Shown here: in pieces, positions 16,472 through 45,273 of the stretch
How the letters are laid out: every line of letters starts with the position of its first letter
Position numbering within the stretch: the stretch's first letter is position 1
Assembly: GCF_900109885.1 (NCBI RefSeq)
Contig: NZ_FOBS01000008.1
Coordinates: 1-64,000, forward strand
Reading direction: 5' to 3'
Length of the DNA: 64,000 nucleotides
Origin: Syntrophus gentianae
Lineage (GTDB): Bacteria > Desulfobacterota > Syntrophia > Syntrophales > Syntrophaceae
Notes under the pieces: generated by a model
Database searches by the model: none
What the model saw: only the letters and a program-made list of their open reading frames with translations
What the model was told of the DNA's origin: nothing
Translations under genes and position numbers: made by a program

Positions 16472-18223
16472 TCAACTTGCCTTTCGGAAAAAAAGGGAAA
16501 CGGATGTTCCTTTGCCGAGGATGCTGGCAATCTCCATTTTTCCCCCATGCGCCGCCATGAGGTGTTTTACAATGGATAGCCCCAGTCCGGTGCCGCCCAA
16601 TTCACGGGAGCGTGCCTTATCCACGCGATAAAACCGTTCTCCAAGTCGGGGAATCTCCCTGGAGGGGATGCCGATTCCTGTATCGGCAACCTGAATAACG
16701 ACCCAATCTGTCTTCTCGTCTTCATGACTGGATATGGTTACGCTTCCCTCATTTTGTGTAAATTTTACGGCGTTGTGAAGGACATTCACCAGAACCTGCG
16801 CCGCCCGATCCCGATCAGCCATTATTTTAGGAATTCTCTCCGGAATTTGCACTTCCAGAGGAATTTTTTTCCCCTTTGCAGTGGCTTCAACCATGGGCAG
16901 CACGGTACGGATCAGGTCATCCACGGATAGCGGCTCAAGCTTCAGGTTCGTTTCATTGAGTTCGATACTGGAAAGTGTCAGGAGATCGTCCACGAGACGG
17001 CTCAACCGCTCTGCGTTGTTGGCAACCGTCTGCAGAAATCTCCGGGCCGTTTCGCTGTCATCCATTGCCCCGGCAAGAAGCGTCTGGATAAATCCGATAA
17101 TCGCGGTCAGAGGCGTGCGGATTTCATGGGTGACATTTGCCACAAAGTCGGTCCGCATCTGCTCAAGTTTCTTCAGCCGGGTCACATCGTGAAACACCAG
17201 CAGCATTTTCCCCTCGCCTTCGGGAAGGCCCTGAATGGCCGAGATGTTTACATCAACGATAAGCGGCTGCTTTCCTCCGAGGCGAATTTCCTGAAGAACA
17301 GGTTTCTTCTCACGGCGGCAGCGTTCCAGGGCATTTTGCAGATCTGCGCTCAAAAAAGCTTCCAGAAGAGTCCTCCCCTGGATATCCGCGCACGGCCGAT
17401 CCAGAATGGTCTCGATCCCCCGGTTACAGGATTCGATCTGGCTCCGGGAGTCCAGAATAACGACGCCTTCCACCATACTGGACAGGGCGGACTCCAGCTT
17501 TCCCTTCTCCTCATGGGCCAGATGGATCTTCTCCCGGTACTCCGAAACGAGATAATTGATGTCCTCCGCCACCTGCCCCAATTCATCCTGGGCATTCACA
17601 AAGAGGGTTCCGGGAAGATCCCCCTGGCGAATGGCCTTCGTATAATCCCGTATTTCCCCGATGGGCCGGAAAAATTTTCGCGTATACATAAGGGCGAGGA
17701 AAATTGCGGGGAACAGGGCAAAAGCGATTGTTCGGTACAAGGATAGGTACATACGATCCACCGCCTCTTGAACTTCGCGCAGGGAACGCGCGATTCTGAC
17801 ATATCCCCGGATCTTTTCCCCTTCCCGGATCGCCACCGCAACATACATCATATCGACCCGAAGGGTGGAACTTCGCCGAATGGCGGTTCCCTGTCCTCGA
17901 AGCCTGGCCTCCTCAACCTCCGGTCGATTCAGATGGAGCTCCATATGGGACACATCCCCCTCTGAATCGGCAAGGACATTTCCCCCGGCGTCAATGACCG
18001 TCACCCGTCCCCTTGCATCCTGCGCCAGCCCATGGACGGCCTTCTTCATCTCTTCAAGGGGCAGCATTGATACCAATCGTGCGGAGTGCAGAATGTTTTC
18101 CTCAATCTGTTCGGTCTCATGGAGTCGGACATTCCGGGAAAAAAGGAATCCCACAATCGCTACAACCAGGAGAATTACAACGACATAGCTGAACAGGATT
18201 CTGAAAAAAAGTCTCTTCTTCAC
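16472..18223 (-). CDS. phoR: Phosphate-sensing histidine kinase PhoR
   Basis: A 583-residue membrane sensor kinase: helix at residues 8-29, a periplasmic segment of about 130 residues, a second helix near 160-178, a HAMP segment, a PAS domain, HisKA with the phospho-acceptor in NVTHEIRTPLTAIIGF, and a HATPase domain with ADTGIGIPS and GGTGLGLSIVKHL. It overlaps phoU by 4 bp, which makes the PhoR assignment firm. Unlike E. coli PhoR it has a large extracytoplasmic sensor region, as in Gram-positive PhoR. Its partner PhoB is not adjacent; the best candidate is the regulator at 49585-50310. Confidence 0.92.
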   Translation of the reverse strand: MKKRLFFRILFSYVVVILLVVAIVGFLFSRNVRLHETEQIEENILHSARLVSMLPLEEMKKAVHGLAQDARGRVTVIDAGGNVLADSEGDVSHMELHLNRPEVEEARLRGQGTAIRRSSTLRVDMMYVAVAIREGEKIRGYVRIARSLREVQEAVDRMYLSLYRTIAFALFPAIFLALMYTRKFFRPIGEIRDYTKAIRQGDLPGTLFVNAQDELGQVAEDINYLVSEYREKIHLAHEEKGKLESALSSMVEGVVILDSRSQIESCNRGIETILDRPCADIQGRTLLEAFLSADLQNALERCRREKKPVLQEIRLGGKQPLIVDVNISAIQGLPEGEGKMLLVFHDVTRLKKLEQMRTDFVANVTHEIRTPLTAIIGFIQTLLAGAMDDSETARRFLQTVANNAERLSRLVDDLLTLSSIELNETNLKLEPLSVDDLIRTVLPMVEATAKGKKIPLEVQIPERIPKIMADRDRAAQVLVNVLHNAVKFTQNEGSVTISSHEDEKTDWVVIQVADTGIGIPSREIPRLGERFYRVDKARSRELGGTGLGLSIVKHLMAAHGGKMEIASILGKGTSVSLFFRKAS

Positions 18224-18918
18224 GCAAGATGCCCTTTCGGTTCCTGGGAAGGATTATGGCGTACACTTTTGCCGGTCACCATGTAAATCACCATATCGGC
18301 AATTCCTTCCGCATGGTCAGAGATTCGTTCCAGGTTTTTGGAAATCTGCATGATGATCAGGGCGGTCCTGATCGTCCGGGGATCTTCGATCATGAAGGTA
18401 AGGAGCTCCCGAAATACCTGTTCATTCAAATTATCGACGATTTCATCATCCTTACGGACCTGATTGGCCAGGTCCACATCCTCACGGATCAGGGAATCCA
18501 TACTCTGGCGGATCATCCGCTGGGTTATCTCCGCCATGTAAGGGATGTCGATATAGGGTTTCAGCTGCGGCTCCTCATTCAGCAGGAGCACTTTTTCGGC
18601 GATGTTGACCGCCATGTCGCCGATCCGTTCGAGATGCCCGTTAATTTTTATGGCCGTCGCGATAAAGCGCAGATCCCTCGCAGCAGGCTGCCGCAAGGCA
18701 AGAATCCGGATGCACCGGTCTTCGTTTTCCGAATCGATCCGATCGATGGCGGTGTCGTCGGCAATGACTTTTTTCGCCAGCTCGGAATCCCGCTCCAGGA
18801 GGGCCTGCAGGGCATTTTTTATGGCATTTTCAGCCAATCCTCCGAGATAAAGCAATCCATCCTTGAGTTCTTTGAGTTCTTTTTCATAGTGGGTACTTGT
18901 ATGGCGCCTGTCTTCCAT
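18220..18918 (-). CDS. phoU: Phosphate transport regulator PhoU
   Basis: A 232-residue all-helical protein with two repeats of the PhoU three-helix bundle. The metal-binding motifs are visible as NGHLERIGDMAVNIAE and NLERISDHAEGIADM. PhoU links the Pst transporter to PhoR and restrains Pho signalling when phosphate is plentiful. A TTG at 18948 would extend the frame, but ATG 18918 has GAGGGAG 6 bases upstream. It sits between pstB and phoR in the operon. Confidence 0.95.
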   Translation of the reverse strand: MEDRRHTSTHYEKELKELKDGLLYLGGLAENAIKNALQALLERDSELAKKVIADDTAIDRIDSENEDRCIRILALRQPAARDLRFIATAIKINGHLERIGDMAVNIAEKVLLLNEEPQLKPYIDIPYMAEITQRMIRQSMDSLIREDVDLANQVRKDDEIVDNLNEQVFRELLTFMIEDPRTIRTALIIMQISKNLERISDHAEGIADMVIYMVTGKSVRHNPSQEPKGHLA

Positions 18919-18964
18919 TTCCGCTCCCTCTTCTTTTTTAAATTCCAACCAATATTACGACAGT

Positions 18965-19726
18965 TCAGCCAAATCGGCCGGTGATGTAATCTTCCGTCTG
19001 TTTTTTTTCCGGATTGGTAAAGATCTTTTCCGTAGAGCTGAATTCAATCAGCTTACCGAGATAGAAGAACCCTGTCATCCCGGAAATGCGGGCCGCCTGC
19101 TGCATGTTATGGGTCACGATGATAATGGTATAATTTTCTCTGAGTTCATCGATGAGTTCCTCGATCTTTGCCGTGGAGATAGGATCCAGAGCGGAGGTCG
19201 GTTCATCCATAAGCAGAACGTCGGGTTTCATGGCCAGAGCGCGGGCAATGCAGAGCCGTTGCTGCTGACCGCCGGAAAGCGTCATGGCCGAGCGGTTCAG
19301 GATGTCCTTCACCTCTTCCCACAGAACGGACTGTTTGAGGCTCACTTCGACCAGTTGCTCGATATCGCTTCTCTTTTTCACGCCATGAAGTTTCGGCCCA
19401 TAGGTAATGTTGTCAAAGATGCTCTTAGGAAAGGGGTTCGGTTTTTGAAAAACCATGCCGATCCTGCGCCGAACCTCGACGGGATCGACATCGGCTGCGT
19501 AAATATTTTTGTCTTCAAAGATAACCTGTCCCTCGACTCTCGACCCATCGATCAGATCGTTCATCCGGTTAAGCAGTCGAAGGAGCGTGGACTTTCCGCA
19601 ACCTGAAGGACCGATAAGGGCTGTAACCCGGTTCTTTTCGAAATCCATGGTAATATCGGTCAATGCCCGAAACTGGCCATAGTAGAAATTGACGTCCATC
19701 ACCTCAATAATAGATTTATTTTTCAA
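18965..19726 (-). CDS. pstB: Phosphate ABC transporter ATP-binding protein PstB
   Basis: A 253-residue ABC ATPase with Walker [10 protein letters not shown], signature [15 protein letters not shown], Walker [13 protein letters not shown] and the switch His in [10 protein letters not shown]. It energises phosphate import through PstCA. The frame stays open far upstream (to 20533) only because it shadows pstA. The start chosen is TTG 19726, preceded by GAGGTGG, giving the usual N-terminus [19 protein letters not shown] 19699 is an alternative. It begins directly after the pstA stop. Confidence 0.95.
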
Positions 19727-19728
19727 TA

Positions 19729-20589
19729 TTACCACCTCTTCCTTTTTCGCATCCGGCTTCGTATGACAATAGCAATCAGGTCGATTCCCAGAACAAGGGC
19801 AACCAGCACGAGGACCGTTCCAAACTGAAGAGGACGGGTTTCTTCGATCCTTGTTCCTGCCGTGGCCAGGACATAAATATGGTAGGGCAAGGCCATGACC
19901 TCGTCGAAAATCGATGAGGGAAGCTTCGCCGTAAAAAAGGCCGCTGCCGTAAACATGATCGGCGCCGTTTCTCCTGCCGCCCGCCCGATGCCCAGAATGG
20001 AGCCGGTCAGAATTCCCGGCATAGCGTTGGGCAGGACGATACTGGAAATGGTGCGCCACTTTGAAACCCCCAAGGCCAGGGAGGCTTCCCGGAAGGTCTG
20101 GGGAACGGCCTTCAGGGCTTCCTCGGACGCCCCGATGATCGTGGGAAGAATCAGGATTCCCAGCGTCAGCGCTCCGGACAGAATGCATGAGCCGATCTCG
20201 AGGAAAACGACCAAAAACCCCAGGCCGAAAAGCCCGAAGACAACGGAGGGAATGCCGGCCAGGCAGTTCACCCCCAGGCGGATGATCCGGATCATTTTCC
20301 CTTGACGGGCGTATTCCGTCAGGTATACCGCCGAGGCGATCCCGAGGGGTAGGGCGACAAGTATAGCACCCACTGTCAGGTAAAGCGTGCCTAAGATTGC
20401 CGGGAATACGCCTCCTTTGGTCATGGAATCCCGAGGCGGACTGGTCAGAAATTCCCAGTTGACGGCTTGAAACCCGTTTAAAAAAATGTAGTATAGGATG
20501 CCTCCAAGGGAAAGCACGATTGCGAGAACACAAAGCGTCGCCGCACCCAGGAAGAGATTCTGCTTAAGATAACGCCATTTCAAGTTCAT
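19729..20589 (-). CDS. pstA: Phosphate ABC transporter permease PstA
   Basis: A 286-residue inner-membrane permease with six predicted helices. The cytoplasmic EAA loop is visible as [20 protein letters not shown], and a [17 protein letters not shown] segment is typical of PstA. It forms the channel with PstC. It lies 20 bp downstream of pstC. Confidence 0.95.
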
Positions 20590-20609
20590 GTAGGATTTTC
20601 CATAATATT

Positions 20610-21497
20610 TTAAAGCGTTGCCGATCCCACCTGTTTGAAGCGATTCGATATGTAGTCCGCAATCAAATTGAAAAGCAATGTCAGAAAAAACAACACGATT
20701 CCCGTGGCAAAGAGGGCATGGTAGTGGCCGCTGCGGAATGGCGCCTCTCCCATTTCGGCGGCGATGCTTGCCGGCATGGGCCGTACCGGATCAAAAAGAC
20801 TTTCGGGCAGGGCCGCCGCTCCGCCTGCAACCATCAAAACGACCATGGTCTCCCCTATTGCCCGTGCCATCCCCAGAATGACGGCCGCCGAAATACCGGA
20901 CAGGGCGCTGGGAACAATCACCCGGGTAATCGTTTCATAGCGGGTCGCCCCCAAGGCGTAGGAGGCTTCCTTGAACTCCTTGCCCACGGCATAAAGGGCG
21001 TCTTCCGAAATGCTGGAAATGGTGGGAATCGCCATGATGGCCAACATCAACGAGGCATTGACGATGTTCAATCCAGTGGGAAGGTCAAAGGTTTCCTGCA
21101 GCCATGGCGCCAAAACCACCATTCCGAAAAAACCGAGTACGACGGACGGCAATCCGGCCAGCAGCTCAATGGCGGATTTCAAAATATCCCGAATGGCTAC
21201 CGGGGCAATCTCCGCAATGAAAATTGCGGAGAGTACTCCGAGAGGAACGGCAATCAACGAGGAAAGGAGCGTTACCACCAGCGAGCCGACAATCAGCGGC
21301 CAGATCCCATATTCGGGAGGATCATAGGTAGGATACCATTCCTTCCCGAAGAGGAACCCGGATACAGACACTTCTTGAAAGATGGGCACCCCTTCACGGA
21401 AAAGAAAGACCACGATCAGCCCTAGAATCAGGATGGAAACGGCGGCAATTCCGAGAAAGAAGAGTTTGATGAGTTTTTCTTTACCCTGCCTCGTCAT
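20610..21497 (-). CDS. pstC: Phosphate ABC transporter permease PstC
   Basis: A 295-residue inner-membrane permease with six predicted helices, the EAA loop EASYALGATRYETITRVIVP and the conserved GMARAIGETMVVLMVAGG. It pairs with PstA. It lies 18 bp downstream of pstS in the pstS-pstC-pstA-pstB-phoU-phoR operon. Confidence 0.95.
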   Translation of the reverse strand: MTRQGKEKLIKLFFLGIAAVSILILGLIVVFLFREGVPIFQEVSVSGFLFGKEWYPTYDPPEYGIWPLIVGSLVVTLLSSLIAVPLGVLSAIFIAEIAPVAIRDILKSAIELLAGLPSVVLGFFGMVVLAPWLQETFDLPTGLNIVNASLMLAIMAIPTISSISEDALYAVGKEFKEASYALGATRYETITRVIVPSALSGISAAVILGMARAIGETMVVLMVAGGAAALPESLFDPVRPMPASIAAEMGEAPFRSGHYHALFATGIVLFFLTLLFNLIADYISNRFKQVGSATL

Positions 21498-21515
21498 AAT
21501 ATCTTATAACCTTTC

Positions 21516-22367
21516 TTATTTCTTCCCCTTCTTTACACCCTTTTTAGCATTCGCCTGCACCGGCACAAACCCCTCCTTCTCCACCAGTTTCTGACCGGCA
21601 GGACTCAGGACGAAATTTATGAAGCCGGCAACCTCCCCAGTTGGCTGACCGTTTGTATACATGTAAAGGGGCCGCGCGATGGGATAGGTCTTTGCCAGAA
21701 CAGTCTGTGCAGAGGCTTGAATACCGTTGACCGTCAGACCTTTAACGGAACGATTCAAGTAACCCAATCCGATGTACCCGATGGCGTAACGGTTCTTGGA
21801 AACCGTCTGGACTACGGCCCCGCTGGATGCCTGAAGCTGGGCTTTCGGAGTGACCTTAGCTCCGTTGAGAACAAGATGTCCCCACGACTCGTATGTTCCC
21901 GAACTGCTGTCGCGGGATACCACCACGATGGGGATATTTTCGCCGCCGACCTCTTTCCAGTTCGTGATCTTCCCCTGATAAATCTGGCTCAACTGATCCA
22001 GAGTCAAGCCGTTGACCTTGTTCCGGGGATTCACGATGGGAACGATGGCGTCGACGGCCACCACATGTTCCTTAACCGATACACCTTTTTCTTTGGCACT
22101 GGCGGCTTCCTTGTCCTTGATCTCCCGGGATGAATTAGCGATGTCCGTGGACCGGTCGATCAACGCCTTGATGCCTTCACCGGACCCGCCGCCGGAAAGG
22201 GAAATATTCACTCCCGGATGACTCTTCATATACGCTTCCAGGGCGACCTGTGCAATCGGCAGAACGGTTGTCGACCCTTTGATCACAACGGTCGTCGCGG
22301 CGGCAGCCGGCAGGCTCCATACCAGGAACATCAGGCAACTTAAAACCCACATACTAACCTTTTTCAC
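21516..22367 (-). CDS. pstS: Periplasmic phosphate-binding protein PstS
   Basis: A 283-residue phosphate-binding protein. The signal peptide ends near residue 23. Ligand loops are KGSTTVLP, SGGGSGEGI and SRDSSSGTYESW, which cradle phosphate in the family. The start is GTG 22367 with GGAGGG 9 bases upstream. The C-terminus is unusually lysine-rich (AKKGVKKGKK). It is the first gene of the pst operon, behind a Pho box. Confidence 0.95.
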   Translation of the reverse strand: MKKVSMWVLSCLMFLVWSLPAAAATTVVIKGSTTVLPIAQVALEAYMKSHPGVNISLSGGGSGEGIKALIDRSTDIANSSREIKDKEAASAKEKGVSVKEHVVAVDAIVPIVNPRNKVNGLTLDQLSQIYQGKITNWKEVGGENIPIVVVSRDSSSGTYESWGHLVLNGAKVTPKAQLQASSGAVVQTVSKNRYAIGYIGLGYLNRSVKGLTVNGIQASAQTVLAKTYPIARPLYMYTNGQPTGEVAGFINFVLSPAGQKLVEKEGFVPVQANAKKGVKKGKK

Positions 22368-22447: not shown

Positions 22448-22491
22448 CTCTTACAGTAAAATTGTTGCAGTTTGATGACAGTGTGATGAAA
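22448..22491 (-). promoter_or_regulatory. Pho box and promoter of pstS
   Basis: Minus-strand hexamers TTTCAT (22491), TGTCAT (22480) and TGCAAC (22469) start exactly 11 bp apart. Ten bases further on is TAAGAG (22453-22448), a weak -10. The arrangement matches the PhoB operator of E. coli, and its place before pstS calibrates the other boxes in this window. Confidence 0.85.
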
Positions 22492-22528
22492 TAATTGAAA
22501 CGTTCCAACCAAGCAGAAAGGTTACACG

Positions 22529-23916: not shown

Positions 23917-25110
23917 TCATGAATCTTTCAACAGATAGGCCCTGTCAGTCAGTTCCCAGGGCAGTCCGATATCCATTCTGCCGACATGGCCGTAGGCGGC
24001 AAGTTTTCGATAGAAACCGCCCTTGACAATGGATGGCATCCAACGCAGATTGAAATCCCGAATAATGGCGGCCGGACGAAAATCAAAATAGGCCTTTACT
24101 CTTTCCGTAATCTGGCTGTCGGGAATAATTCCTGTTCGGAAGGTCTCGACGTGGATGCTTACCGGCCTCGAAAATCCTATAGAGTAGCTGAGCTGTACCT
24201 CGCATTCCTCTGCAAGTCCCGCGGCAATGACATTCTTCGCTGCATAGCGTGCGGCATAAGCTCCGACCCGGTCGATCCGGGAAGGGTCTTTTCCGCTCAG
24301 CGCCGCGCCGCTTTGCCGGGCATATTCACCGTAGGTATCCACTCCGTTTTTTCTTCCCGTCAAACCTGAATGGATGGAGGGACCGCCGGTTATGAATGGA
24401 CCGTCCGGATTCACGAAAATCTGTGTTCTTGCATCGGGTTGAATTGGTTCATCGCTGAAAGCAGGTTTCAGGACAAATTCCCCGATATCATCGGCAAATT
24501 GCTTTGGATTCGGCGCGCCCGATGAAGTCTGGCTGCCGATAACGGTAATGCTGAAAATCCTGAAAGGCAGACGATTGACATATTCGACGCCTACCTGTAT
24601 TTTGCCGTCCGGTTCCAGATAGGGCAGTACTTTTTGAATCCGCACGGAAGTAAGCTTTCGGGAAAGCTTATGAGCCAACCATACAGGCAACGGCATAAAA
24701 GCTGCGGTCTGGTTGCAGGCAAAGCCGAAGAGCGTCACCTGGTTTTTCGCCGTTACCTGGTCAATTTCCTCATCGGTCATCGTTCGTTCATCGCGATAGC
24801 CGAATTCTTCCATGGGAAGACTGTTCAGGCTTGTGAGGATACTGCAGGACAGTGGATTAAAAGCTTCGCCTGTATACCCCACCTGTCCTATCATTTGCCT
24901 GGCCACCTTGGGAAGATCCACCATAGCATGGGATCGGAAACGCGCTGCGATAAAAAGAATGGCCGTGGATACGGCACATTCGGCAATAACCGTCGAATAG
25001 GGATCACGCCGGAGAAACTCGTCTACGACGGCATCGCTGATCAGATCGCAGAGTTTATCGGGATGTCCTTCCGTTACGGATTCCGACGTAAAGATGAAAT
25101 CTTTTTTCAT
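23917..25110 (-). CDS. Divergent S-adenosylmethionine synthase (MetK-like)
   Basis: A 397-residue MetK homologue. The N-terminus FTSESVTEGHPDKLCDLISDAV keeps the catalytic GHPDK (residues 15-19), and GLTGRKNGVDTYG and SGKDPSRIDR match later active-site motifs. The usual GAGDQG loop that contacts ATP and the flexible gate is replaced by TAKNQV at residues 120-125. Standard MetK makes AdoMet from methionine and ATP, releasing phosphate and pyrophosphate. It overlaps the ATPase stop codon by 4 bp, so translation is probably coupled. It may be a second, specialised copy; whether another metK exists lies outside this window. Confidence 0.85.
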   Translation of the reverse strand: MKKDFIFTSESVTEGHPDKLCDLISDAVVDEFLRRDPYSTVIAECAVSTAILFIAARFRSHAMVDLPKVARQMIGQVGYTGEAFNPLSCSILTSLNSLPMEEFGYRDERTMTDEEIDQVTAKNQVTLFGFACNQTAAFMPLPVWLAHKLSRKLTSVRIQKVLPYLEPDGKIQVGVEYVNRLPFRIFSITVIGSQTSSGAPNPKQFADDIGEFVLKPAFSDEPIQPDARTQIFVNPDGPFITGGPSIHSGLTGRKNGVDTYGEYARQSGAALSGKDPSRIDRVGAYAARYAAKNVIAAGLAEECEVQLSYSIGFSRPVSIHVETFRTGIIPDSQITERVKAYFDFRPAAIIRDFNLRWMPSIVKGGFYRKLAAYGHVGRMDIGLPWELTDRAYLLKDS

Positions 25111-28100
25111 TGGGCGCTCCCTGTTTTCGTCGTTTCGTTTACAAGAAGAGGAAGAACAGACCCTCCTGCTATGACTGCCGCGTCGATGAGACTTATTGGC
25201 GTCAATCCAAGCAACCCCCTCAATCCTGGTATAAAGAAGGTCGCCGCCTGGAGGGTCATGCTCCCCAGCAATGTGAACCGGAGGAAAGAATTGGGCGGCA
25301 GTTTCGTCTTGCTGAACAGGCTGTGATGTTCCGAACGGCAGCTCAGAGCATGGAGAAGCTGACCCATAGACAGGGTGCAGAAGGCCAGTGTTCCCGCTTG
25401 TGGTCCCATCCCGTATCTCCAGAGTCCATATCCATAAGCACCGAGCGTTCCCGCAGTCAGACTGGCCCCCTCGAAGGCAATCCGCTTCATGTCTGCAGCC
25501 TTCATGATCGGATCCTCGGTATTTCGAGGAGGTTTCCTGAGAACATCCGGTTCCGGGGGCTCCAGGGCCAAGGCGAGGCCCGGGAAAATGTCCGTGATAA
25601 GATTGATCCATAACAACTGCATGGAATTGATGGGCTGCCCCATCCCGGCCGCGATCGCCACAGACAGGATCATGATTTCGCTGAAGTTTGAAGAAGTCAG
25701 ATAGTGGATGGCTTTTCGCGTATTGTTGTAAATGGTTCGTCCCTGACTGATTGCCACAATCATGGTTTCCAGATTGTCATCCTCAAGAACGACATCGGCT
25801 ACCTCGCGGGCCACATCGGTCCCGGTCTTCCCCATGGCGATGCCGACATCTGCCGCTTTGAGGGCCGGTCCGTCATTGATGCCGTCGCCGGTCATGGCCA
25901 CAACCCGGCCAGCCTTCTGGAGCGCTTGAACGATCTGCAGTTTATGAGCAGGGCTGACACGGGAAAAAACATGAACCTTTTCGCAGAGGGCGGTCATCAC
26001 TTCCGGGGATATCCCTGAAAACTGTGTTGAATCCAGGATTTCAAGGTGCTCTGTCTTGCTGAGGCTCAGCTCTCTCCCCACGGCGTATGCCGTTGGGCTC
26101 TGATCGCCGGTGATCATGACCGTGTCTATGCCGGAGCCTTGGAACTGATCGATGATGTCTTTCATTCCCGGTCGGACCGGATCAGCCATGCCTACAAGTC
26201 CGAGCCAGACGAGGTTTTCCCTGAAATCCAGCGTGTGTCCGAAAGAAGAGGCGTTACCCTCCAAAATGCAAAAAGCAACACCGAGAACGCGCAGGGCCTC
26301 GCCGGCTAACCGTTCGTTTTCCATTTCCAGATCAAGGCGATCATCATCAGTCATCTGCAGCAGGGTCCCGTCGATCATGCGCCAGTTGCACAGGGAGATC
26401 ACTTCGTCGGGGCTGCCTTTCAGTGTAATCAGTCGCCCATTGCCGCCATCCCCGTGGTCGCCGCCGTTTCCATTGCGCGAGTGAACGGTATACATGTAAT
26501 TGCGGTCTTCCGAACGATGGCTGATCATTTCGCGGGGGTAAGACTGCCTCAAGTGCGCCACGTCAATCCCTGCTCCCAGAGCGGTGATAATCAGCGCGTT
26601 TTCCGTTGAAGAGCCGCTGAGAATATAATTTCCTTTTTCTCCGCCCAGTTCGCTCTCATTGCATAGCACTGATACATGGATAAGGGTCAGAAGCTCCCGA
26701 TTTGCATAGGGGGCAACCTCACTGTTACCGGATCCATGAAATTTTCCTTCCGATACGACCAGGCGATTTTCACCCGCCACAATAACCTTCACAGACATAC
26801 TGTTGAGAGTCAGCGTACCGGTCTTATCGAGACAGATCGTTCGAACGGACCCCAGGGTTTCCACAGCTTCAAGGTGTCGAATGAGCACATTGAGCTTTCT
26901 CATTCTACGAATCCCTAAGGTCAGGGTCGTCGTCGATACGGTTGGAAGACCTTCCGGCACAGCCGCCACGGCCAGGGAAATCGATAAGCTGAGCATCTGC
27001 AGGAATCCATAGCCCCGGAGGATGCCGATACCGAACACGCCAATGCAGACGGCGCTGCTAATCCCGACAAGCTGCCGTCCCAGTTGATCCAACTGCCGTG
27101 CCATGGGCGTTTCCGGTGCGGTCGCCTCTCCGGCCATTGTCTGAATTTTTCCAATTTCCGTGAACTTTCCAGTGGAAATGACGACGGCAAGCCCCTGTCC
27201 TCCAGTCACCAGTGTTCCCATATAGACCATATTGTTCCTGTCCCCCAACGGGACGTCCCGGACCAGGATGGGTTCGACATTTTTTACCACCGGCATGCTT
27301 TCGCCCGTAAGGGTCGATTCGTCAATGCTTAAACGTTTCGCACTGATCAGCCTTGCATCTGCCGCGACATAATGACCGGGTCTCAAGGCGAGGAGATCGC
27401 CGGGAACGACCTCGTCGGCACCCACTCTACAGACAATGCCCTCCCGGATGACTTCCGCCGTAGCCCGAACAAGTCGCTTGAGAGAATGGATCGTTTTCTC
27501 CGACGAGCTCTCCGTTGCATAGCCGATCGTCGCGTTAATGCCGACCACGGCGGCAATCGTTGCGGCATGGACAACTTCCGCAGTCAAAATGGCAATTCCC
27601 GCAGCAACGCCAAGCATCACCACAGGCAGCGATTTAAACTGTTCGATAAAGATATCGAATCCGGATCGAGGTACGGATTCAGGCAGCATATTCGGCCCAT
27701 ACTTCGCAAAGTTTTTTTTCGCGGACTCATGCGACAGGCCGGAAAATCCGGAAGTCCCAAATTCCAGGAGCACCTCTTCAGGGCTCATTCTGTGCCAGTC
27801 TATGGATTTCTGTTCGTCGGCATGGATAATCAGCGCTCTCGCCTTTTTTTTGCTCGCAAGTCCGGCAGCGCCATTTTTACTTCTCTCGTGAAGACGGCGG
27901 GGTGGATTAACGTGGTTCTTTTTCCAATCGTCCGTTTCGATTGGATTCGTTTTTCCATATTCCAAGACAAGAACGGAAATCAGGGTAGAGATGCTTGAAG
28001 GCGTATGATTCCGGTCATCGAAATGGACAAGAATCGTACCGGTAAGACTGCTGATTGAAACACAGGTTATACCGTCTCCTGTGGAGAAATGCGCGGCAAG

Positions 28101-28196
28101 ATAATTTTTGAGGGGCTTTGATCGATAAAGCCCCTCAACTTCATATCTGGCCCTGCCTTTGACACATATATGAACCGGATGAACGGCCTGTCGCAA
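25107..28196 (-). CDS. P2A-type cation-transporting ATPase with N-terminal HMA_2-like domain
   Basis: A 1029-residue P-type ATPase. Residues about 7-80 resemble the two small HMA_2 proteins nearby and have no CXXC metal motif. The pump has LTGES (actuator), CLDKTGTLT (phosphorylated Asp), and MTGDGINDGPALK. Transmembrane site motifs are those of calcium or manganese pumps: AVPEGLP in M4, SSNFSEI in M5 and NLITDIFPG in M6. The CPC or SPC motif of heavy-metal pumps is absent. The start is TTG 28196, directly after the previous stop, with AAAGG 8 bases upstream inside that gene. The long N-terminal extension recalls mycobacterial CtpH/CtpI. Direction and substrate are not known. Confidence 0.88.
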   Translation of the reverse strand: MRQAVHPVHICVKGRARYEVEGLYRSKPLKNYLAAHFSTGDGITCVSISSLTGTILVHFDDRNHTPSSISTLISVLVLEYGKTNPIETDDWKKNHVNPPRRLHERSKNGAAGLASKKKARALIIHADEQKSIDWHRMSPEEVLLEFGTSGFSGLSHESAKKNFAKYGPNMLPESVPRSGFDIFIEQFKSLPVVMLGVAAGIAILTAEVVHAATIAAVVGINATIGYATESSSEKTIHSLKRLVRATAEVIREGIVCRVGADEVVPGDLLALRPGHYVAADARLISAKRLSIDESTLTGESMPVVKNVEPILVRDVPLGDRNNMVYMGTLVTGGQGLAVVISTGKFTEIGKIQTMAGEATAPETPMARQLDQLGRQLVGISSAVCIGVFGIGILRGYGFLQMLSLSISLAVAAVPEGLPTVSTTTLTLGIRRMRKLNVLIRHLEAVETLGSVRTICLDKTGTLTLNSMSVKVIVAGENRLVVSEGKFHGSGNSEVAPYANRELLTLIHVSVLCNESELGGEKGNYILSGSSTENALIITALGAGIDVAHLRQSYPREMISHRSEDRNYMYTVHSRNGNGGDHGDGGNGRLITLKGSPDEVISLCNWRMIDGTLLQMTDDDRLDLEMENERLAGEALRVLGVAFCILEGNASSFGHTLDFRENLVWLGLVGMADPVRPGMKDIIDQFQGSGIDTVMITGDQSPTAYAVGRELSLSKTEHLEILDSTQFSGISPEVMTALCEKVHVFSRVSPAHKLQIVQALQKAGRVVAMTGDGINDGPALKAADVGIAMGKTGTDVAREVADVVLEDDNLETMIVAISQGRTIYNNTRKAIHYLTSSNFSEIMILSVAIAAGMGQPINSMQLLWINLITDIFPGLALALEPPEPDVLRKPPRNTEDPIMKAADMKRIAFEGASLTAGTLGAYGYGLWRYGMGPQAGTLAFCTLSMGQLLHALSCRSEHHSLFSKTKLPPNSFLRFTLLGSMTLQAATFFIPGLRGLLGLTPISLIDAAVIAGGSVLPLLVNETTKTGSAQ
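28108..28138 (-). other. Perfect 12-bp hairpin early in the ATPase coding sequence
   Basis: TTGAGGGGCTTT pairs with AAAGCCCCTCAA around a 7-base loop, covering codons about 20-30 of the ATPase. It is followed by A-rich sequence on the coding strand, so it does not look like a terminator. It could slow ribosomes or lower pump translation relative to the preceding gene. Confidence 0.5.
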
Positions 28197-29072
28197 TTAT
28201 TCAGCCTTTTCCTCTTCTGGTTTCTTGGCGGGAGGTTCCGATTTCGGCAACGCGGCGCTGGCAACATCCTTCACCCCCTCCACGACACCGACCAGCATAT
28301 CCCTTACCGCTTTCAGGGCGATATTCCCGATCGAACTGGCCGCTTCAACAGCGCCACTGACGGCTACCTTCGCAACCTCTTCCACGTTGCCGCCGATCTC
28401 CTTCGTCGCTTCGATCACCCCGTCAACTGCCCGCCTAGCTACCATGGAGACATCCGCGCCGACTTCCGAAGCCGCTTTGATCGCCCCTTTAACAGTCTGC
28501 CCGGCCACATTGATCACATCTCCGCCAACATCGCCGACCCCCATGACCACGCCTTTGGCAACGCTTTTCGTGCTCAGAATCAATCCCGTGCCAACCTCTT
28601 CCGTTGCCGCAATGGCGCCCTTGATGACATCCTTCGTCACCGAAACGCTTTCCGTTGCAATACTTCCCGTTGCCTTCAAGGTTGTTGATACGGTATTCCG
28701 AACCGTTGTCACAATTTCCGCTTCGATTTCATTGATGCCCTTCAGACTGTTCACGATGCCGCCCTTTACGGTAGTCCCTGCCTGTCCGAGCTGTTCTTCC
28801 ATACTTTTCTTCTCGGTTGTCGATTCTTCTGAAGCCATACTCTTCTCCTCTTTGTTTGTTAATGTTGACGGCACTATATCCGGCTCAGTCAATAAAGCCT
28901 TTTCGTTTTTTCCATCCAGAATTCCCTCTGCCGTTTTTTCTTCTTCCGAAGCCACGGGCTCCTCCTCTTTTTTTCTTACGCGTAGTCTTTTCGTATCCTT
29001 CGCGGCCGATCCGGCCGCGCCTTCCTGTTCCTCCAGGCCTCCACTCTCCGTTTTTTCTGCATTTGGACCCAT
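28197..29072 (-). CDS. Apolipoprotein-like 22-residue repeat protein
   Basis: A 291-residue protein of unknown function. Residues 1-100 are charged and probably disordered. Residues 106-259 are seven consecutive units of exactly 22 residues (106, 128, 150, 172, 194, 216, 238), with a partial eighth. The pattern is V.GAI.AA.EVG.DV..VA, for example VKGAIKAASEVGADVSMVAR and VDGVIEATKEIGGNVEEVAK. Twenty-two residues is six helical turns, so hydrophobic residues form one stripe, as in apolipoproteins and lipid-droplet or phasin-type coat proteins. There is no signal peptide or transmembrane helix. The tail is Lys/Glu/Pro-rich. It ends just before the ATPase start, so the two are co-expressed. Confidence 0.7.
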   Translation of the reverse strand: MGPNAEKTESGGLEEQEGAAGSAAKDTKRLRVRKKEEEPVASEEEKTAEGILDGKNEKALLTEPDIVPSTLTNKEEKSMASEESTTEKKSMEEQLGQAGTTVKGGIVNSLKGINEIEAEIVTTVRNTVSTTLKATGSIATESVSVTKDVIKGAIAATEEVGTGLILSTKSVAKGVVMGVGDVGGDVINVAGQTVKGAIKAASEVGADVSMVARRAVDGVIEATKEIGGNVEEVAKVAVSGAVEAASSIGNIALKAVRDMLVGVVEGVKDVASAALPKSEPPAKKPEEEKAE

Positions 29073-29134: not shown

Positions 29135-29629
29135 TTAGACGACGCTGGAGTTTTCCTGTTCTTTCGTCTTGAGGAGTATATTCAACGCGTACCAGAAAGC
29201 CGTGTACCAAGCCGGTGCGGCAAAGTTGCCCCGGCTTATCTGGTAGATGCCGACACCTACCAGGGCAATGAAGGCAATTCCCCCGATATTCGTTATTCCG
29301 CTCGTAATTCTTGTCACCGAATGATCGATATCCAGATAGCTTTTGGCAAGGGCGCCGTGCATAATCGGTCGCGATGTCGGCATTGTTTCGTCCTGCACAA
29401 TGTGCAAAAGTTCATTTTGCTCCGCATTGTTCAGTATGGTAGAGGAATCGATGCTGTGGATGAGAAGTACGCTTGCAGTAAGAGGTTGTATGCTGACGGA
29501 ATCGATGCCCTCCTGTCCGGAAAGATGATTCAGTAACGTCTCGAAGTAATCCGCATCACGTCTTCTTGACGGAATCTTGATGCGGAGCCGATTAGCTGTC
29601 CTGGAGGAAATATACGCATTGGGAATCAT
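29135..29629 (-). CDS. HMA_2-domain membrane protein
   Basis: A 164-residue protein. Residues about 8-70 look like an HMA_2-type ferredoxin fold (NRLRIKIPSRRRDADYFETL then EGIDSVSIQPLTASVLLIHS), without metal-binding cysteines. A hydrophobic helix lies near residues 112-130, followed by a short tail. Its start overlaps the DUF5132 stop by 4 bp, indicating coupled translation. The ATPase downstream begins with a related domain, so the two may dimerise or bind the same partner; that is inference. Confidence 0.75.
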   Translation of the reverse strand: MIPNAYISSRTANRLRIKIPSRRRDADYFETLLNHLSGQEGIDSVSIQPLTASVLLIHSIDSSTILNNAEQNELLHIVQDETMPTSRPIMHGALAKSYLDIDHSVTRITSGITNIGGIAFIALVGVGIYQISRGNFAAPAWYTAFWYALNILLKTKEQENSSVV

Positions 29630-29901
29630 GGTTTTTCCGGCTCCTGCGATGCAGCCAGCAATTCCGCCTCCACTTCCGCTTTGGCTTCCGCCGTAAGATC
29701 TTCAACCATCTCTTTCATTTCGGCCAGTTTCTCCTTGTTTGTCTCATACAGCGTAATGCCACCCTTGATCGCGGCCTTTGTAAGAGGTTTAGCGACACTG
29801 GCCAGCACTTTAATGATCATCGGAGCAACCATTGCCGTTCCGACACCGATTGCAAGCCCGGTAACAACATTTCCCTTTATCCCACCATCAAACAGTCCCA
29901 T
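29626..29901 (-). CDS. DUF5132 protein
   Basis: A 91-residue protein with the DUF5132 layout: GGIKGNVVTGLAIGVGTAMVAPMI (Gly/Ala-rich membrane helix), then KPLTKAAIKGGITLYE, then an acidic amphipathic helix (EMVEDLTAEAKAEVEAEL). The start is ATG 29901, with GGAGG about 6 bases before it; the frame is open further upstream but lacks a better site. First gene of the operon running to metK. Function of the family is unknown. A paralogue lies at 30708-31022. Confidence 0.75.
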   Translation of the reverse strand: MGLFDGGIKGNVVTGLAIGVGTAMVAPMIIKVLASVAKPLTKAAIKGGITLYETNKEKLAEMKEMVEDLTAEAKAEVEAELLAASQEPEKP

Positions 29902-30178
29902 GTCAACCTCCATGCAAGTTCCATTTTCTCTAAATGTATCACGATCCGATATCGCCTGCATGAGATTTGATCATTACTCGCCTACTCATCATCGGAGCCT
30001 ATCCATTATTGACCGCACCTTTTTTCATTGTGTTGATAGCAAAGAAAGGATTAATTTTATGCCAAATCATCAACCTTATCTCCTTTAACCTTTAACCGTC
30101 TTGAGGATCTTCACGGCAGGGGCGTCAGAAACCTACGAAGCTTCGTGTACCCAGGCATCGCTCCGTGGCGTTGGCACA

Positions 30179-30382: not shown

Positions 30383-30682
30383 GATTTTTCCTTACAGATT
30401 CATTGGGGAATTTCAGGACACATTTCATATCTGAAACGTTATCGCAGGCTCGATTTTCTCCCCCCCTCGATACTTAATAATTTATATCCCGGCAACTCCA
30501 TCCTTTTGCCAACGCATTTAAAGTCCTCTACACTTCAATTATGACAAGAGAATGAAGGATGAATAAAATTTCCGTGAAACGTGCAGGCGATTTTAATCAC
30601 GAAACAAAAGGGGGAAAGATTGAAAATACCTTTTCGGGAGAATGAAGGAAAAGATTGGATGACCTGCGCAACACAGAAGAAA
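30383..30682. other. Intergenic stretch without a supported gene
   Basis: An AT-rich stretch between the small-protein gene and the terminator of the second DUF5132 gene. No open frame with a recognisable product and no Pho-type repeat was seen. Confidence 0.4.
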
Positions 30683-30707: not shown

Positions 30708-31022
30708 TTAAACGGCTTTTTCTTCTTCCGTTAAGGCAGAAGGTTCAATGGGTACGGCAGAAGATTCAACATCGATAACGTCCTTGTCCCTTGCCAACTC
30801 CTGTTTGGTCTCAGCCACGAAATCCGAAGCTATTTTCCCTAATTCCATGACTGTCTCACTCCCTTTCTCATACAAAGTCGCGCCGGTTTTGACAACAGCC
30901 TTTGTCGTCGTTTTTACGATTCCAGCCAGTGCGGGAAGAACGACAGGAGCCAGCAGCAGCGCTCCGACACCGACCAGAAGACCTGCACCAACATTGCCTT
31001 TTATATAATTTCCCAGTGCCAT
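30708..31022 (-). CDS. DUF5132 protein, second copy
   Basis: A 104-residue paralogue of 29626-29901 with the same pattern: GNYIKGNVGAGLLVGVGALL, a hydrophobic helix, KTTTKAVVKTGATLYEKG and an acidic helix (IASDFVAETKQELARD). The start ATG 31022 has AGGAGGTGATC upstream, an excellent ribosome site. It may share the transcript that starts at the Pho box near 32100, but a 413-bp spacer separates it from the HMA_2 gene, so it may also have its own promoter. Confidence 0.75.
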   Translation of the reverse strand: MALGNYIKGNVGAGLLVGVGALLLAPVVLPALAGIVKTTTKAVVKTGATLYEKGSETVMELGKIASDFVAETKQELARDKDVIDVESSAVPIEPSALTEEEKAV

Positions 31023-31435
31023 CTTGATCACCTCCTGAGTCTTTTTTCTTATACCTCTTATTTCCATTGAAGTATATTTTTCTGATATTCCATTGTCCGT
31101 CCGCACGAGCCGGAAGGCGTCTGTGCGCCAATCAACAATTCCGCAATTCATTCGGCACGATGCAGCCCGTTACTCCTGGGTCGAAAATGGGGCCTGTCCC
31201 AACGGATATCACAAGAGCGGTGATACTGAAGGCGCCCTCCGCCAGGGCGATGTTATTCTGAATCTTCGGAAGAGCTCGTAAAGTGAGAAAGTCGTCAAAT
31301 CGATCAACTCACCAAGACGCCATCTAAATCCTCTTCTGTGCATTCGTGGATGGCGCATTGGACAAAATTAAAGACTGCCCTTCTCCAATGATTAAAATAC
31401 GTGCATAATTTTTGGTGGCGCCGCACTTTTTGCAA
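31023..31435. other. 413-bp spacer between DUF5132 and HMA_2 genes
   Basis: Small frames exist on both strands (for example plus 31093-31281), but none has a recognisable domain. No Pho box was found here. It may contain a decayed gene. Confidence 0.3.
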
Positions 31436-31756
31436 TCAAATGAAGGTCGTGATAACGTCGATGGCAAAGGCGCTGACCTTCGACGCGGCCTGATGCATAT
31501 ACAGATCGTTTGTTGTGGCTTTTGAAGAATCAAAGTATCCATTTTCCTGCAGAAGAGCGACCAGAGCGCCGTGCCTCGTTATCCGGGGATCATAATTAAT
31601 GAGAACACTGCCTGTTACCAGATTGACTGCGACTTTATCGACCCCCTGGGCTTTGCGGATAAGCTGTTCGACCTTATCCGCCGCATCTCTGTTCTTTCGA
31701 ATGGAAGGGCTTTTCATTCTCAATCTCCCGGGCACATCATGAAGATAGTAACTCAT
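31436..31756 (-). CDS. HMA_2-domain protein, second copy
   Basis: A 106-residue protein. Residues about 1-75 form an HMA_2-like domain (VPGRLRMKSPSIRKN, then GVDKVAVNLVTGSVLINYD), matching the small protein at 29135-29629 and the ATPase N-terminus. No CXXC is present. The C-terminal 25 residues are mildly hydrophobic. AGGAG lies 4 bases before ATG 31756. It follows the zinc-ribbon gene by 16 bp and shares its Pho-type promoter. Confidence 0.75.
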   Translation of the reverse strand: MSYYLHDVPGRLRMKSPSIRKNRDAADKVEQLIRKAQGVDKVAVNLVTGSVLINYDPRITRHGALVALLQENGYFDSSKATTNDLYMHQAASKVSAFAIDVITTFI

Positions 31757-31772: not shown

Positions 31773-32060
31773 TTATTTTGTTATCTTTACGTAATGCCTG
31801 CACTGCGGATAGGCGCCGCACCGATAGCGGGTATGGGTTTCCGTATCCATGTACAGATGCATTGCACGTCCACAGAGAGGACATTGCGGCCTTCTCTGCG
31901 GTACTTTTCTCACATGTCCCTCCACAAACTGACGTCCACAGATCAGACAGAGAAAGCGTTGCGACGAATTGCATTTACCGTAACGGTACAGAGCCCGCGA
32001 AGTGCATCGTGGACATTTCAGGAATTCTTTATTATTGATATTGCCTTGAACCTGTTCCAT
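31773..32060 (-). CDS. Double zinc-ribbon protein
   Basis: A 95-residue protein with two zinc ribbons: CPRCTSRALYRYGK with FLCLICGRQF (like the InsA-type ribbon of IS1), then CPLCGRAMHL with YRCGAYPQCRHY (like topoisomerase C-terminal ribbons). The frame stays open to a GTG at 32144, but the Pho-type promoter places transcription start near 32063, so ATG 32060 is the first start within the mRNA. That would make the transcript almost leaderless, which fits the lack of a ribosome site. Possibly a DNA- or RNA-binding regulator; the function is unknown. Confidence 0.6.
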   Translation of the reverse strand: MEQVQGNINNKEFLKCPRCTSRALYRYGKCNSSQRFLCLICGRQFVEGHVRKVPQRRPQCPLCGRAMHLYMDTETHTRYRCGAYPQCRHYVKITK

Positions 32061-32069
32061 CACGAACAC

Positions 32070-32113
32070 AATATACGCTGATATTGTTACGATATTATTA
32101 CAAAGCGATGAAT
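32070..32113 (-). promoter_or_regulatory. Pho box and promoter of the zinc-ribbon/HMA_2 operon
   Basis: Minus-strand hexamers ATTCAT (32113), TGTAAT (32102) and CGTAAC (32091) start 11 bp apart. Ten bases on is TATATT (32075-32070), a strong -10. The start codon at 32060 is only about 10 bases beyond the -10. Confidence 0.75.
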
Positions 32114-32208
32114 TTTCCGTTAATTGTGTATCCTCAATAAACACTACCCAGGATTACGCTCCGTCGTACTCAGCTTCTCGAAGAAACTCCGATTGAAGTA
32201 CACGAAAA

Positions 32209-32839: not shown

Positions 32840-34258
32840 TTATTTTACTGTGACTTGTTTCCTCCTGAAAACAAGCAGTCCTGCAAATCCCGGAGCCAAG
32901 AGCAGAATACTTGCGGGAATCGGGACAGGTGCTGCGTTTGCGGCATCCATCACCTTGAAGATATCCGTGTTATCGATATACCAATTAAATGCCGTATCGA
33001 TCCCATACATGGATGCCATGTTGGGATCGCTTCCGGTGAGATAGGCAAGGAAAAGATCCGCATCGGCGCCTTCGGCATAAAAAGGCACCAGGGCGTTGGT
33101 GTGGCTGCCGGAGTTGTATGCTGCACCTGGTAGGTTGCCGACTCCATTATCGACGACCTGATTGAATGCGCCTGAGGTTGGTCCCCACAGTCCACCACAC
33201 TCGTGGTCGGCGGTGACGATGAGGAGGGTGTTGCTCCAGTCATTGCCATTTGTGCCCGCATTCAGGTAATCCACAACAGCTTGAACGGCGTTGTTGAAGT
33301 CGATCTCCTCATTAATGGCCCGGCCCAGGTTATTGGCGTGATTGGCCCAGTCAATAGCGCCCCCCTCAATCATGACCGCGAAGCCATCCGCATCGTTGTC
33401 GAGGACATTCAGGGCCGCCTTTGTCATGGTGGCCAGATCGGGTACGTTGGTGTTCGTTGCAGAAGCCGGCGCACCCGTTCGGGAATCCTGAAGGGTGTCC
33501 CGCACCTGGGCTACGCCGAATACTTTGTCGACATTCATTGTACCGTTAGCAAGAGCATCGAATTGGGACTTGCTTTCGATAAAGGTGCGTCCGTTGGCGC
33601 CGCTCGTGATGGCGTCCCAGTTAGCCTGGTTGCCGACGATTCCGTAATTAGCAGCAACGGACTGGCCGTTGTTGTTGTACAAAGGGTGACCGGCGCCCAT
33701 GATGACATCAAGCTTGCTGTTGATCATTTGGCTGGTGATCGTCGCATAATCATTACGGTTTGTCGTTTTTGCCACAACGGCTGCCGGTGTGGCATGGTCA
33801 AAATTGACCGTTGAGACGGCGCCCGTCGCCTTACCCTGATCGGCAACCTTCTCAAAGAAGGTGGTCAGATCAGCGCCGGTCGTTGTCTTGTTCATCTGGC
33901 TGTCATAGATCTTCGCGCCCGAGTACATAGCAGTGGCCGCCGAGGACGAGTCGGTAGCGCCGGATTTCTGATAACTGAAGTCAGACCACATCTTGGCAGG
34001 ATCGTAGGGTTTCCCGACATAGCCATTAAAAGCGCCGGCTGAACTGGTGTTCATGGCGCCTTTGACGGCAAAAGACTCATATACGGCTTTGGTTCCCGTG
34101 TAATAATCGGTCGCCTTGACCGTGTTGAATCCCTGGCCGTCGCTGATCATCAGGATGATGTTTTTCGCCGCCATATCGGCATAAGCGGGCTGACCCAATG
34201 CGAACAACATCGCGGCCATCCCCACCAAGCCAATAATTTTTTTCTTCATTTCCAGCAT
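32840..34258 (-). CDS. Secreted alkaline phosphatase with PEP-CTERM-like tail
   Basis: A 473-residue alkaline phosphatase of the PhoA superfamily. The signal peptide ends near residue 27 (AYADMA). NIILMISDGQG carries the first metal Asp, SGATDSSSAATAM the nucleophile Ser region, and IEGGAIDWANHANN and VTADHECGG the remaining metal ligands. It releases phosphate from organic esters outside the cell. The C-terminus has the sorting layout PVPIPAS, hydrophobic helix, FRRKQ, matching the protein at 5492-6238. ATG 34258 has GGAGG 8 bases upstream. A four-repeat Pho box lies about 180 bp upstream. Confidence 0.92.
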   Translation of the reverse strand: MLEMKKKIIGLVGMAAMLFALGQPAYADMAAKNIILMISDGQGFNTVKATDYYTGTKAVYESFAVKGAMNTSSAGAFNGYVGKPYDPAKMWSDFSYQKSGATDSSSAATAMYSGAKIYDSQMNKTTTGADLTTFFEKVADQGKATGAVSTVNFDHATPAAVVAKTTNRNDYATITSQMINSKLDVIMGAGHPLYNNNGQSVAANYGIVGNQANWDAITSGANGRTFIESKSQFDALANGTMNVDKVFGVAQVRDTLQDSRTGAPASATNTNVPDLATMTKAALNVLDNDADGFAVMIEGGAIDWANHANNLGRAINEEIDFNNAVQAVVDYLNAGTNGNDWSNTLLIVTADHECGGLWGPTSGAFNQVVDNGVGNLPGAAYNSGSHTNALVPFYAEGADADLFLAYLTGSDPNMASMYGIDTAFNWYIDNTDIFKVMDAANAAPVPIPASILLLAPGFAGLLVFRRKQVTVK

Positions 34259-34274
34259 TGTTGATTCCTCCATC

Positions 34275-34328
34275 CTATGGTTGTCGATTAATGATCTTTG
34301 CTGTCCACCTCTGCCGCCTTGAAAACAA
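34275..34328 (-). other. Possible leader peptide in the phosphatase mRNA
   Basis: Within the roughly 170-base leader, AAGGAGGG is followed after about 7 bases by TTG (34328) and a 17-codon frame ending TAG at 34275. It is out of frame with the phosphatase. The ribosome site is strong; the coding evidence is only positional. Confidence 0.25.
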
Positions 34329-34432
34329 GAAAACACCCTCCTTATTATAGATGCTCGCCGTATCACCCCCCTCTCAATGCGTGATGCGCCCTGTCCGTTC
34401 CACCGGATATAGGCGCACTCAGATTTGAGGCG

Positions 34433-44509: not shown

Positions 44510-45232
44510 TCAGTTTTCGTCTGAAAACTTGTAGCCAAGACTCCTCACCGTCAGAAGGTAACGCGGCTTATCCTTTTCCGGCTCAATAAGAGATCTTAAC
44601 CTGCTTATATGAACATCCACCGTTCTAGGTTCAACGAAGGAGTCATTTCCCCAGACGGCATCGAGTAATTCCTCCCGTGTATAAACACGTCCCGGATGTT
44701 TCATGAGAAAGGTGAGAAGTTTTATTTCCCGTGCTGTGAGGTCCATGTTGACACCGTTAACGGTGACTTTGTGATAATTGAGATCAATTCGAATTTCCTT
44801 GTAAACAACGATTTTTTTATCCTCCTCTTGGCCAGGGCGCTCAAGCCTGCGAATGAGAGCCCTGATTCTGGCCAGAAGCTCTCTAATATGAAAAGGCTTG
44901 GTCAAATAGTCATCGGCGCCCATCTCCAGGCCTAATATTTTTTCCGTTGAATCCGACCGGGCCGTAAGCATGATGATAGGAATGCTCCCCGTTTCAGAAT
45001 CTTTTCTGAGATATCGGCATGTTTCCAATCCATCCATCTCGGGCATCATCCAATCCAGAACGACAACGTCCGGATGTTTCTTTCGAGCAATCTCAATGGC
45101 TTCGACACCATTGTGCGCGACAAGGACCTGGAATCTCTCCCGGGACAGATTATAGTTCAGAAGATCCGTAATATCCTTTTCATCATCCACCACCAGGACC
45201 GTTCGCTGCCTTGATCTTTGTCCTTCTGTCAT
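44510..45232 (-). CDS. OmpR/PhoB-type response regulator, second copy
   Basis: A 240-residue regulator. The receiver has VVDDEKD and the phospho-acceptor in VVLDWMMPEMDG; the winged-helix output ends with VEPRTVDVHISRLRS and LTVRSLGYKF. It is close to the protein at 49585-50310 along its whole length. ATG 45232 has AAGGAA 7 bases upstream. It lies downstream of the DksA-like gene on the same strand, with the start 42 bp past that gene's stop, so it is probably the last gene of the Pho-box operon beginning at 49161. That would make it a regulator induced by phosphate limitation. Confidence 0.9.
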   Translation of the reverse strand: MTEGQRSRQRTVLVVDDEKDITDLLNYNLSRERFQVLVAHNGVEAIEIARKKHPDVVVLDWMMPEMDGLETCRYLRKDSETGSIPIIMLTARSDSTEKILGLEMGADDYLTKPFHIRELLARIRALIRRLERPGQEEDKKIVVYKEIRIDLNYHKVTVNGVNMDLTAREIKLLTFLMKHPGRVYTREELLDAVWGNDSFVEPRTVDVHISRLRSLIEPEKDKPRYLLTVRSLGYKFSDEN

Positions 45233-45273
45233 GATTTGATTCCTTCCGATGAATGTTGAGCGAATCCATTGAT

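Follow-up and report, generated by a model that had tools for sequence, protein, structure and literature searches.

What does a protein with a strictly regular 22-residue repeat do beside a cation pump in Syntrophus gentianae? The sequence-only reading of this locus took the repeat for a long helix carrying a continuous hydrophobic stripe, of the sort that lies flat on lipid or polymer surfaces. To answer the question we analysed the repeat itself, its homologues, its predicted fold and its gene neighbourhood in the window, i.e. the whole stretch of 64,000 nt from contig NZ_FOBS01000008.1 (positions 1 to 64,000), and in homologous loci. The features of the repeat gene are as follows.

28197..29072, minus strand: gene of the 22-residue-repeat protein (291 aa from M1; open reading frame confirmed)
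28836-28838, minus strand: alternative start M79, yielding 213 aa
28839..29072, minus strand: charged N-terminal extension, residues 1-78, probably disordered, with the basic cluster KRLRVRKK
28296..28757, minus strand: seven exact 22-residue units, residues 106-259, most of them predicted to form a single helix with Gly-12 as C-cap and D/N/T-14 as N-cap

The seven exact units were confirmed by BLOSUM62 autocorrelation, in which lag 22 reached z = 10.0, lag 44 z = 8.0 and lag 11 z = 4.5, whereas 2000 shuffles gave no z above 4.4 at any lag. Self-alignment moreover extended the repetition past residue 259, into an eighth, partial unit (residues 260-281). The proposed amphipathicity also held, the hydrophobic moment having a sharp peak of 0.315 at 98 degrees, which corresponds to 22 residues per 6 turns, and values <0.08 at other angles. 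A continuous hydrophobic stripe was nevertheless not accepted as proving a long helix, because an equally coherent moment arises from exact repetition by itself. A tandem-repeat search at the DNA level found none; hence the repeat is ancient and kept only at the protein level.

The translated protein may begin at M1 or at M79, which are preceded by the ribosome sites AGGGAGG and GAGGAG, respectively, and most homologues start near M79. Most homologues are without the N-terminal extension and instead carry a flexible, basic C-terminal tail (..EITTRTRGRRGE); in 44 of 61, the final 8 residues include at least three K/R.

The 84,980 species genomes that were scanned contain relatives of the repeat protein at 62 loci. 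Identity across residues 70-290 is mostly 56-76%, and the carriers belong to Nitrospirota, Desulfobacterota, Planctomycetota (Brocadia group), Methylomirabilis and some gammaproteobacteria. Because the protein is absent from three other genomes in the same genus as the window, its gene is an accessory one with a patchy distribution. Across 61 aligned homologues, residues 96-277 contain no insertion or deletion, which is unusual among repeat proteins. Every unit has V or I at position 11; units 3-7 have Gly at position 12 in 57 or more of the 61 sequences, and in units 4-7 the majority of sequences have D, N or T at position 14. Gly-12 and D/N/T-14 are helix stop and start signals (C-cap and N-cap). 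Furthermore, the polar face is conserved as much as the hydrophobic face (correlation 0.08), which suggests protein contacts and not a loose lipid stripe; the sequence conservation of lipid-coat helices is usually loose. The lack of insertions and deletions and the equal conservation of all faces fit a precise binding surface.

The AlphaFold2 model of the repeat protein, based on 46 homologues, has a pLDDT of 81.6 (>90 across most repeats) and a pTM of 0.72, and consists of one long N-terminal helix followed by one helix of ∼19 residues per 22-mer, stacked as an alpha-solenoid. An orphan paralogue of 272 aa, encoded on another contig of the same genome and 31% identical to the repeat protein, was modelled from four sequences with a pTM of 0.85 as twelve helices, mostly ∼22 residues apart. 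A regular array of stacked helices, by which an alpha-solenoid is recognized, is therefore present in the predictions for both the repeat protein and its divergent paralogue. AlphaFold2 was trained with designed helical repeats and may be biased to solenoids for helical repeats, and the Gly/cap pattern gives support for the helix breaks that is independent of it. Computation hence supports the repeat protein as a rigid alpha-solenoid of single-helix repeats of 22 residues. A single long helix flat on lipid, as first supposed, is unlikely, given the caps at positions 12 and 14 and one predicted helix per unit: the predicted chain is broken into stacked solenoid helices.

The orphan paralogue family comprises proteins of ∼270 aa with 22-mers throughout and twelve predicted helices, and occurs without the pump operon; in the window's genome its gene adjoins that of a small membrane protein resembling a YihY/BrkB fragment. 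Copies were located as follows.

L003:1210-2028 (G000 C12:11108-11926): orphan paralogue
L002:1495-2301: orphan paralogue
L090:1471-2319: orphan paralogue

A modified lipid reading has to be weighed against this fold, in which the protein would behave like apolipoproteins, perilipins or synuclein and its helices would open on the curved surface of a membrane or organelle that forms when phosphate is scarce; helical-bundle apolipoproteins can indeed open on lipid. We regard it as unlikely, but as deserving attention. The strong amphipathicity favours it, the three PDB sequence matches below threshold include alpha-synuclein (E 4), and the Senescence domain (PF06911) was weakly matched by 12 of the 46 members (best E 6e-4) and by none of 10 reversed controls, matches for which composition does not fully account. 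The repeat protein of the window itself has no match to PF06911, and Apolipoprotein (PF01442) was matched by none of the 46 members at E 0.1. The near-invariant Gly caps, the predicted solenoid and the fully conserved polar face also count against opening on lipid. Coating of a polymer, the other surface first proposed, was not borne out. A phasin on polyhydroxyalkanoate granules would require us to rely on Phasin_2, matched weakly by 5 of 46 members (best E 0.046) and also by one reversed control, and PHA synthase (PhaC) is absent from the genome, which is 99.99% complete; this absence effectively refutes the phasin, to which we give almost no weight. Matches to tail tape-measure proteins in PHROGs (E 1e-6) were set aside as similarity of helical composition, the context not being that of a phage.

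In the gene neighbourhood, the following genes surround the repeat gene.

29626..29961, minus strand: small membrane protein with DUF5132, at the head of the conserved block
29135..29629, minus strand: HMA_2 domain membrane protein
25107..28196, minus strand: P2A-type cation ATPase with an N-terminal HMA_2-like domain and PEGL, SSNxxE and NLITD motifs
23917..25110, minus strand: paralogue of MetK (SAM synthetase), with ATP/triphosphate residues kept and the active-site SPDI loop lost
30708..31151, minus strand: second DUF5132 protein
31436..31756, minus strand: second HMA_2/HMA domain protein
31773..32144, minus strand: zinc-ribbon protein, a recurrent neighbour of the HMA_2 gene in homologous loci

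The order DUF5132, HMA_2, repeat protein, P2A ATPase-HMA_2 and MetK paralogue is kept in nearly all 62 loci, with median gaps of -4, 71, 6 and -4 bp. The repeat protein is a member of this operon, as its supposed co-expression with an ion pump implied: repeat and pump genes are adjacent in 54 of the 62 loci (median gap 6 bp), and in the window they abut directly (28197/28196). Because its partners are membrane proteins, association of the repeat protein with the membrane in some form is possible. Among 247 genomes sampled from the phylum, DUF5132 accompanies the repeat protein in all 13 carriers and is present without it in only 3 (Fisher p = 4e-19), and in these three a related P2A pump lies beside or near DUF5132. 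Pump clusters that have DUF5132 and no repeat protein (L109:7231-10434, L110:7132-11153 and L111) may represent variant forms of the system; some of them adjoin a second ATPase, of CPC type (P1B). No mention of DUF5132 was found in the open literature searched.

The closest solved relatives of the pump are human SPCA1 (E 1e-141) and Listeria LMCA1 (E 3e-134). It has a Cation_ATPase_C domain, and residues of SERCA type are retained in helices 4, 5 and 6, though the equivalent of SERCA E908 is not. By its motifs, the ion is likely to be Ca2+ or Mn2+. The MetK paralogue belongs to a distinct subfamily with 44 copies (e.g. that of the window, L012:11885-13093 and L018:11864-13072). In all 44 cluster copies His replaces the Asp matching E. 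coli D238, and in 33 of them Asn replaces that matching D118; both are methionine-site residues of E. coli MetK. With these changes the cluster copy may not make SAM from methionine; a separate MetK elsewhere in the genome has ordinary motifs at these sites and adjoins a gene of S-adenosylhomocysteine hydrolase. Rfam metal or SAM riboswitches were found neither in the window nor in the nine loci searched.

Further genes recur around the cluster. DUF3562 genes are found nearby in about 23 loci. A DUF445 protein (22584-23849) is convergent with the operon in the window, and L006, L016 and L057 have a member of the same family close to the cluster. In about eight loci, a gene of a CorA-type Mg2+ channel directly follows the MetK paralogue, its start lying within a few bases of the paralogue's end in the following cases.

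L018:13073: CorA-type gene start
L021:6848: CorA-type gene start
L025:13049: CorA-type gene start
L030:6780: CorA-type gene start
L036:13125: CorA-type gene start

Phosphate supply is the condition to which the surroundings of the operon point. The relevant features of the window are listed here.

16472..22367, minus strand: phosphate operon with sensor kinase, PhoU, PstB (overlapping a frame in the PstA position), PstC and PstS
32840..34366, minus strand: PhoA-type alkaline phosphatase
44510..45367, minus strand: PhoB-like response regulator (275 bits to TIGR02154, cut-off 296)
22464..22492, minus strand: candidate Pho box of pstS (ATTTCATCACACTGTCATCAAACTGCAAC), the reference site
30541..30569, minus strand: candidate Pho box (ATTTTATTCATCCTTCATTCTCTTGTCAT) in which three half-sites of 7 bp recur every 11 bp, upstream of the block from DUF5132 through HMA_2, repeat protein and pump to MetK

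Genes of PstS or PstC/A are present in about 17 of the 62 loci, which are mostly short. Upstream of pstS, the Pho box of this lineage consists of TGTAAC-like half-sites in direct repeat at 11 bp, and this form replaced the E. coli-style CTGTCAT box, which was only slightly enriched. Upstream of the operon, strict half-site pairs at 11 bp numbered 10 compared with 0.13 expected, the 10 pairs representing 7 or 8 independent places as palindromic pairs were counted on both strands. With a looser half-site, 11 bp was the best of 22 spacings and beat all 21 controls; this was so for the loci that have pst and also for the 30 in which no pst gene is in view. Most loci have a degenerate form of the strict TGTNAY-type box, and the box in the window scored 22.1 versus 16.5-17.0 at control spacings, with the caution that short motifs arise by chance. 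Control of the operon by Pho, through candidate PhoB direct repeats at 11 bp, is thus supported by computation.

Genes for phosphorus-free lipids, which speak for the lipid-surface alternative, adjoin some of the homologous clusters. The ornithine-lipid genes olsB and olsA lie beside the cluster in about six loci, including L009, L012, L017, L019 and L028 (Nitrospirota), and one further locus has the following arrangement.

L115:12767-14610: DUF3419 (BtaA-like) and an adjacent methyltransferase, directly downstream of the cluster MetK paralogue

We take DUF3419 to be the betaine-lipid enzyme BtaA. A general link to phosphorus-free lipids was rejected, since lipid genes are present at few loci and BtaA and an OlsB relative were both absent from the window's genome.

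Taken together, our preferred reading, to which we assign a probability of roughly 45%, is that the repeat solenoid serves as a rigid, non-enzymatic scaffold of a membrane cation-pump complex induced by phosphate starvation. The repeat, the order of the genes and the motifs of pump and MetK-like protein are established; we infer the scaffold role, the formation of a complex, the transported ion and the purpose. The complex would contain DUF5132, HMA_2, the Ca2+/Mn2+-type P2A ATPase with its N-terminal HMA_2 domain and the MetK-like nucleotide-binding protein. When phosphate drops, PhoB would turn the operon on; the solenoid, with its basic terminal tail, would gather the pump, the HMA_2 and DUF5132 proteins and the MetK-like protein in a membrane patch; and the pump would export Ca2+ or Mn2+ from the cytosol, or load a compartment. 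Pumping would be called for as cations bound to phosphate are freed and the membrane charge is altered.

A more ambitious proposal, which we consider improbable, is that the operon builds a phosphate-controlled membrane compartment, a store of Ca2+(Mn2+)-phosphate with a role like that of acidocalcisomes. The P2A pump would load cations, DUF5132 and HMA_2 would shape the membrane, and the 22-residue solenoid would form a protein coat. A Pfam search found neither PPK1 nor PPK2 in the 99.99% complete genome, and such a host would lack the usual phosphate store. Such a compartment, if it exists, would be a type of bacterial store so far unseen.

A similar low probability applies to the repeat protein being a component of a ferrosome-like, membrane-bounded metal store (a fez-type organelle); such systems and the operon have in common a P-type ATPase accompanied by small membrane proteins and by HMA-like domains. 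FezB is a heavy-metal ATPase of the P1B-6 class, whereas the pump of the window is of P2A type (PEGL, Cation_ATPase_C, nearest SPCA1), and on this pump type membership fails. A FezC-type DUF4405-like cytochrome is a feature of the D. magneticus cluster, and no DUF4405 was found among the cluster genes of the window scanned with Pfam. Ferrosomes are present in Desulfovibrio magneticus (PMC12748827, PMC10979944), and fez clusters occur in lineages overlapping with those of the operon. Their fezA/fezB genes are under the control of Fur (PMC12574912), whereas the operon described here is linked to Pho and not to Fur or iron, and it includes a MetK paralogue and a solenoid.

The PEGL and N..TD motifs are common to the pump and the SPCA1/LMCA1 Ca2+(Mn2+)-ATPases, from which it differs by its extra N-terminal HMA_2 domain and its operon partners. 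The MetK paralogue is of the S-adenosylmethionine synthetase family over its full length and shares the ATP/triphosphate residues, and differs in the methionine-site Asp replaced by His and in the absent SPDI loop. The operon as a whole is undescribed and widely shared, joining a calcium-type pump, an altered MetK paralogue and DUF5132 and HMA_2, both families of unknown function, and if our reading is right it offers testable functions for several orphan families.

The repeat protein resembles exchangeable apolipoproteins (PF01442) and alpha-synuclein in having 22-mer or 11-mer amphipathic repeats, and alpha-synuclein also in a composition rich in V/A/G/T/K/E. It differs from apolipoproteins in matching no family model of theirs, in its fixed-length, indel-free units and in its punctuation, which is Gly-(Gly/Ala)-Asp compared with the Pro that punctuates the repeats of apoA-I. 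In structure searches with both models, none of the named natural solenoid families (such as TPR, HEAT and ARM) stood out; natural chains appeared only at Z about 7, and designed proteins alone stood out, although a natural counterpart may exist. The repeat protein model is alike to the designed DHR4 (5cwb; Z 14.2, 160 residues, 2.7 Å) and the paralogue model to the designed crystal-forming repeat 8cws (Z 22.2, 267 residues, 3.2 Å), and 8cwy, another designed crystal-forming repeat, is also among the closest solved structures. These designs share stacked short helices and tight turns with the fold predicted here, but they are artificial and show no sequence relationship (10-18% identity), whereas the natural protein has Gly caps and a period of exactly 22 residues per helix. 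If the predicted fold is true, nature has evolved a near-ideal repeat solenoid, retained free of insertions and deletions across several phyla, whose closest solved likenesses are computer-designed proteins.
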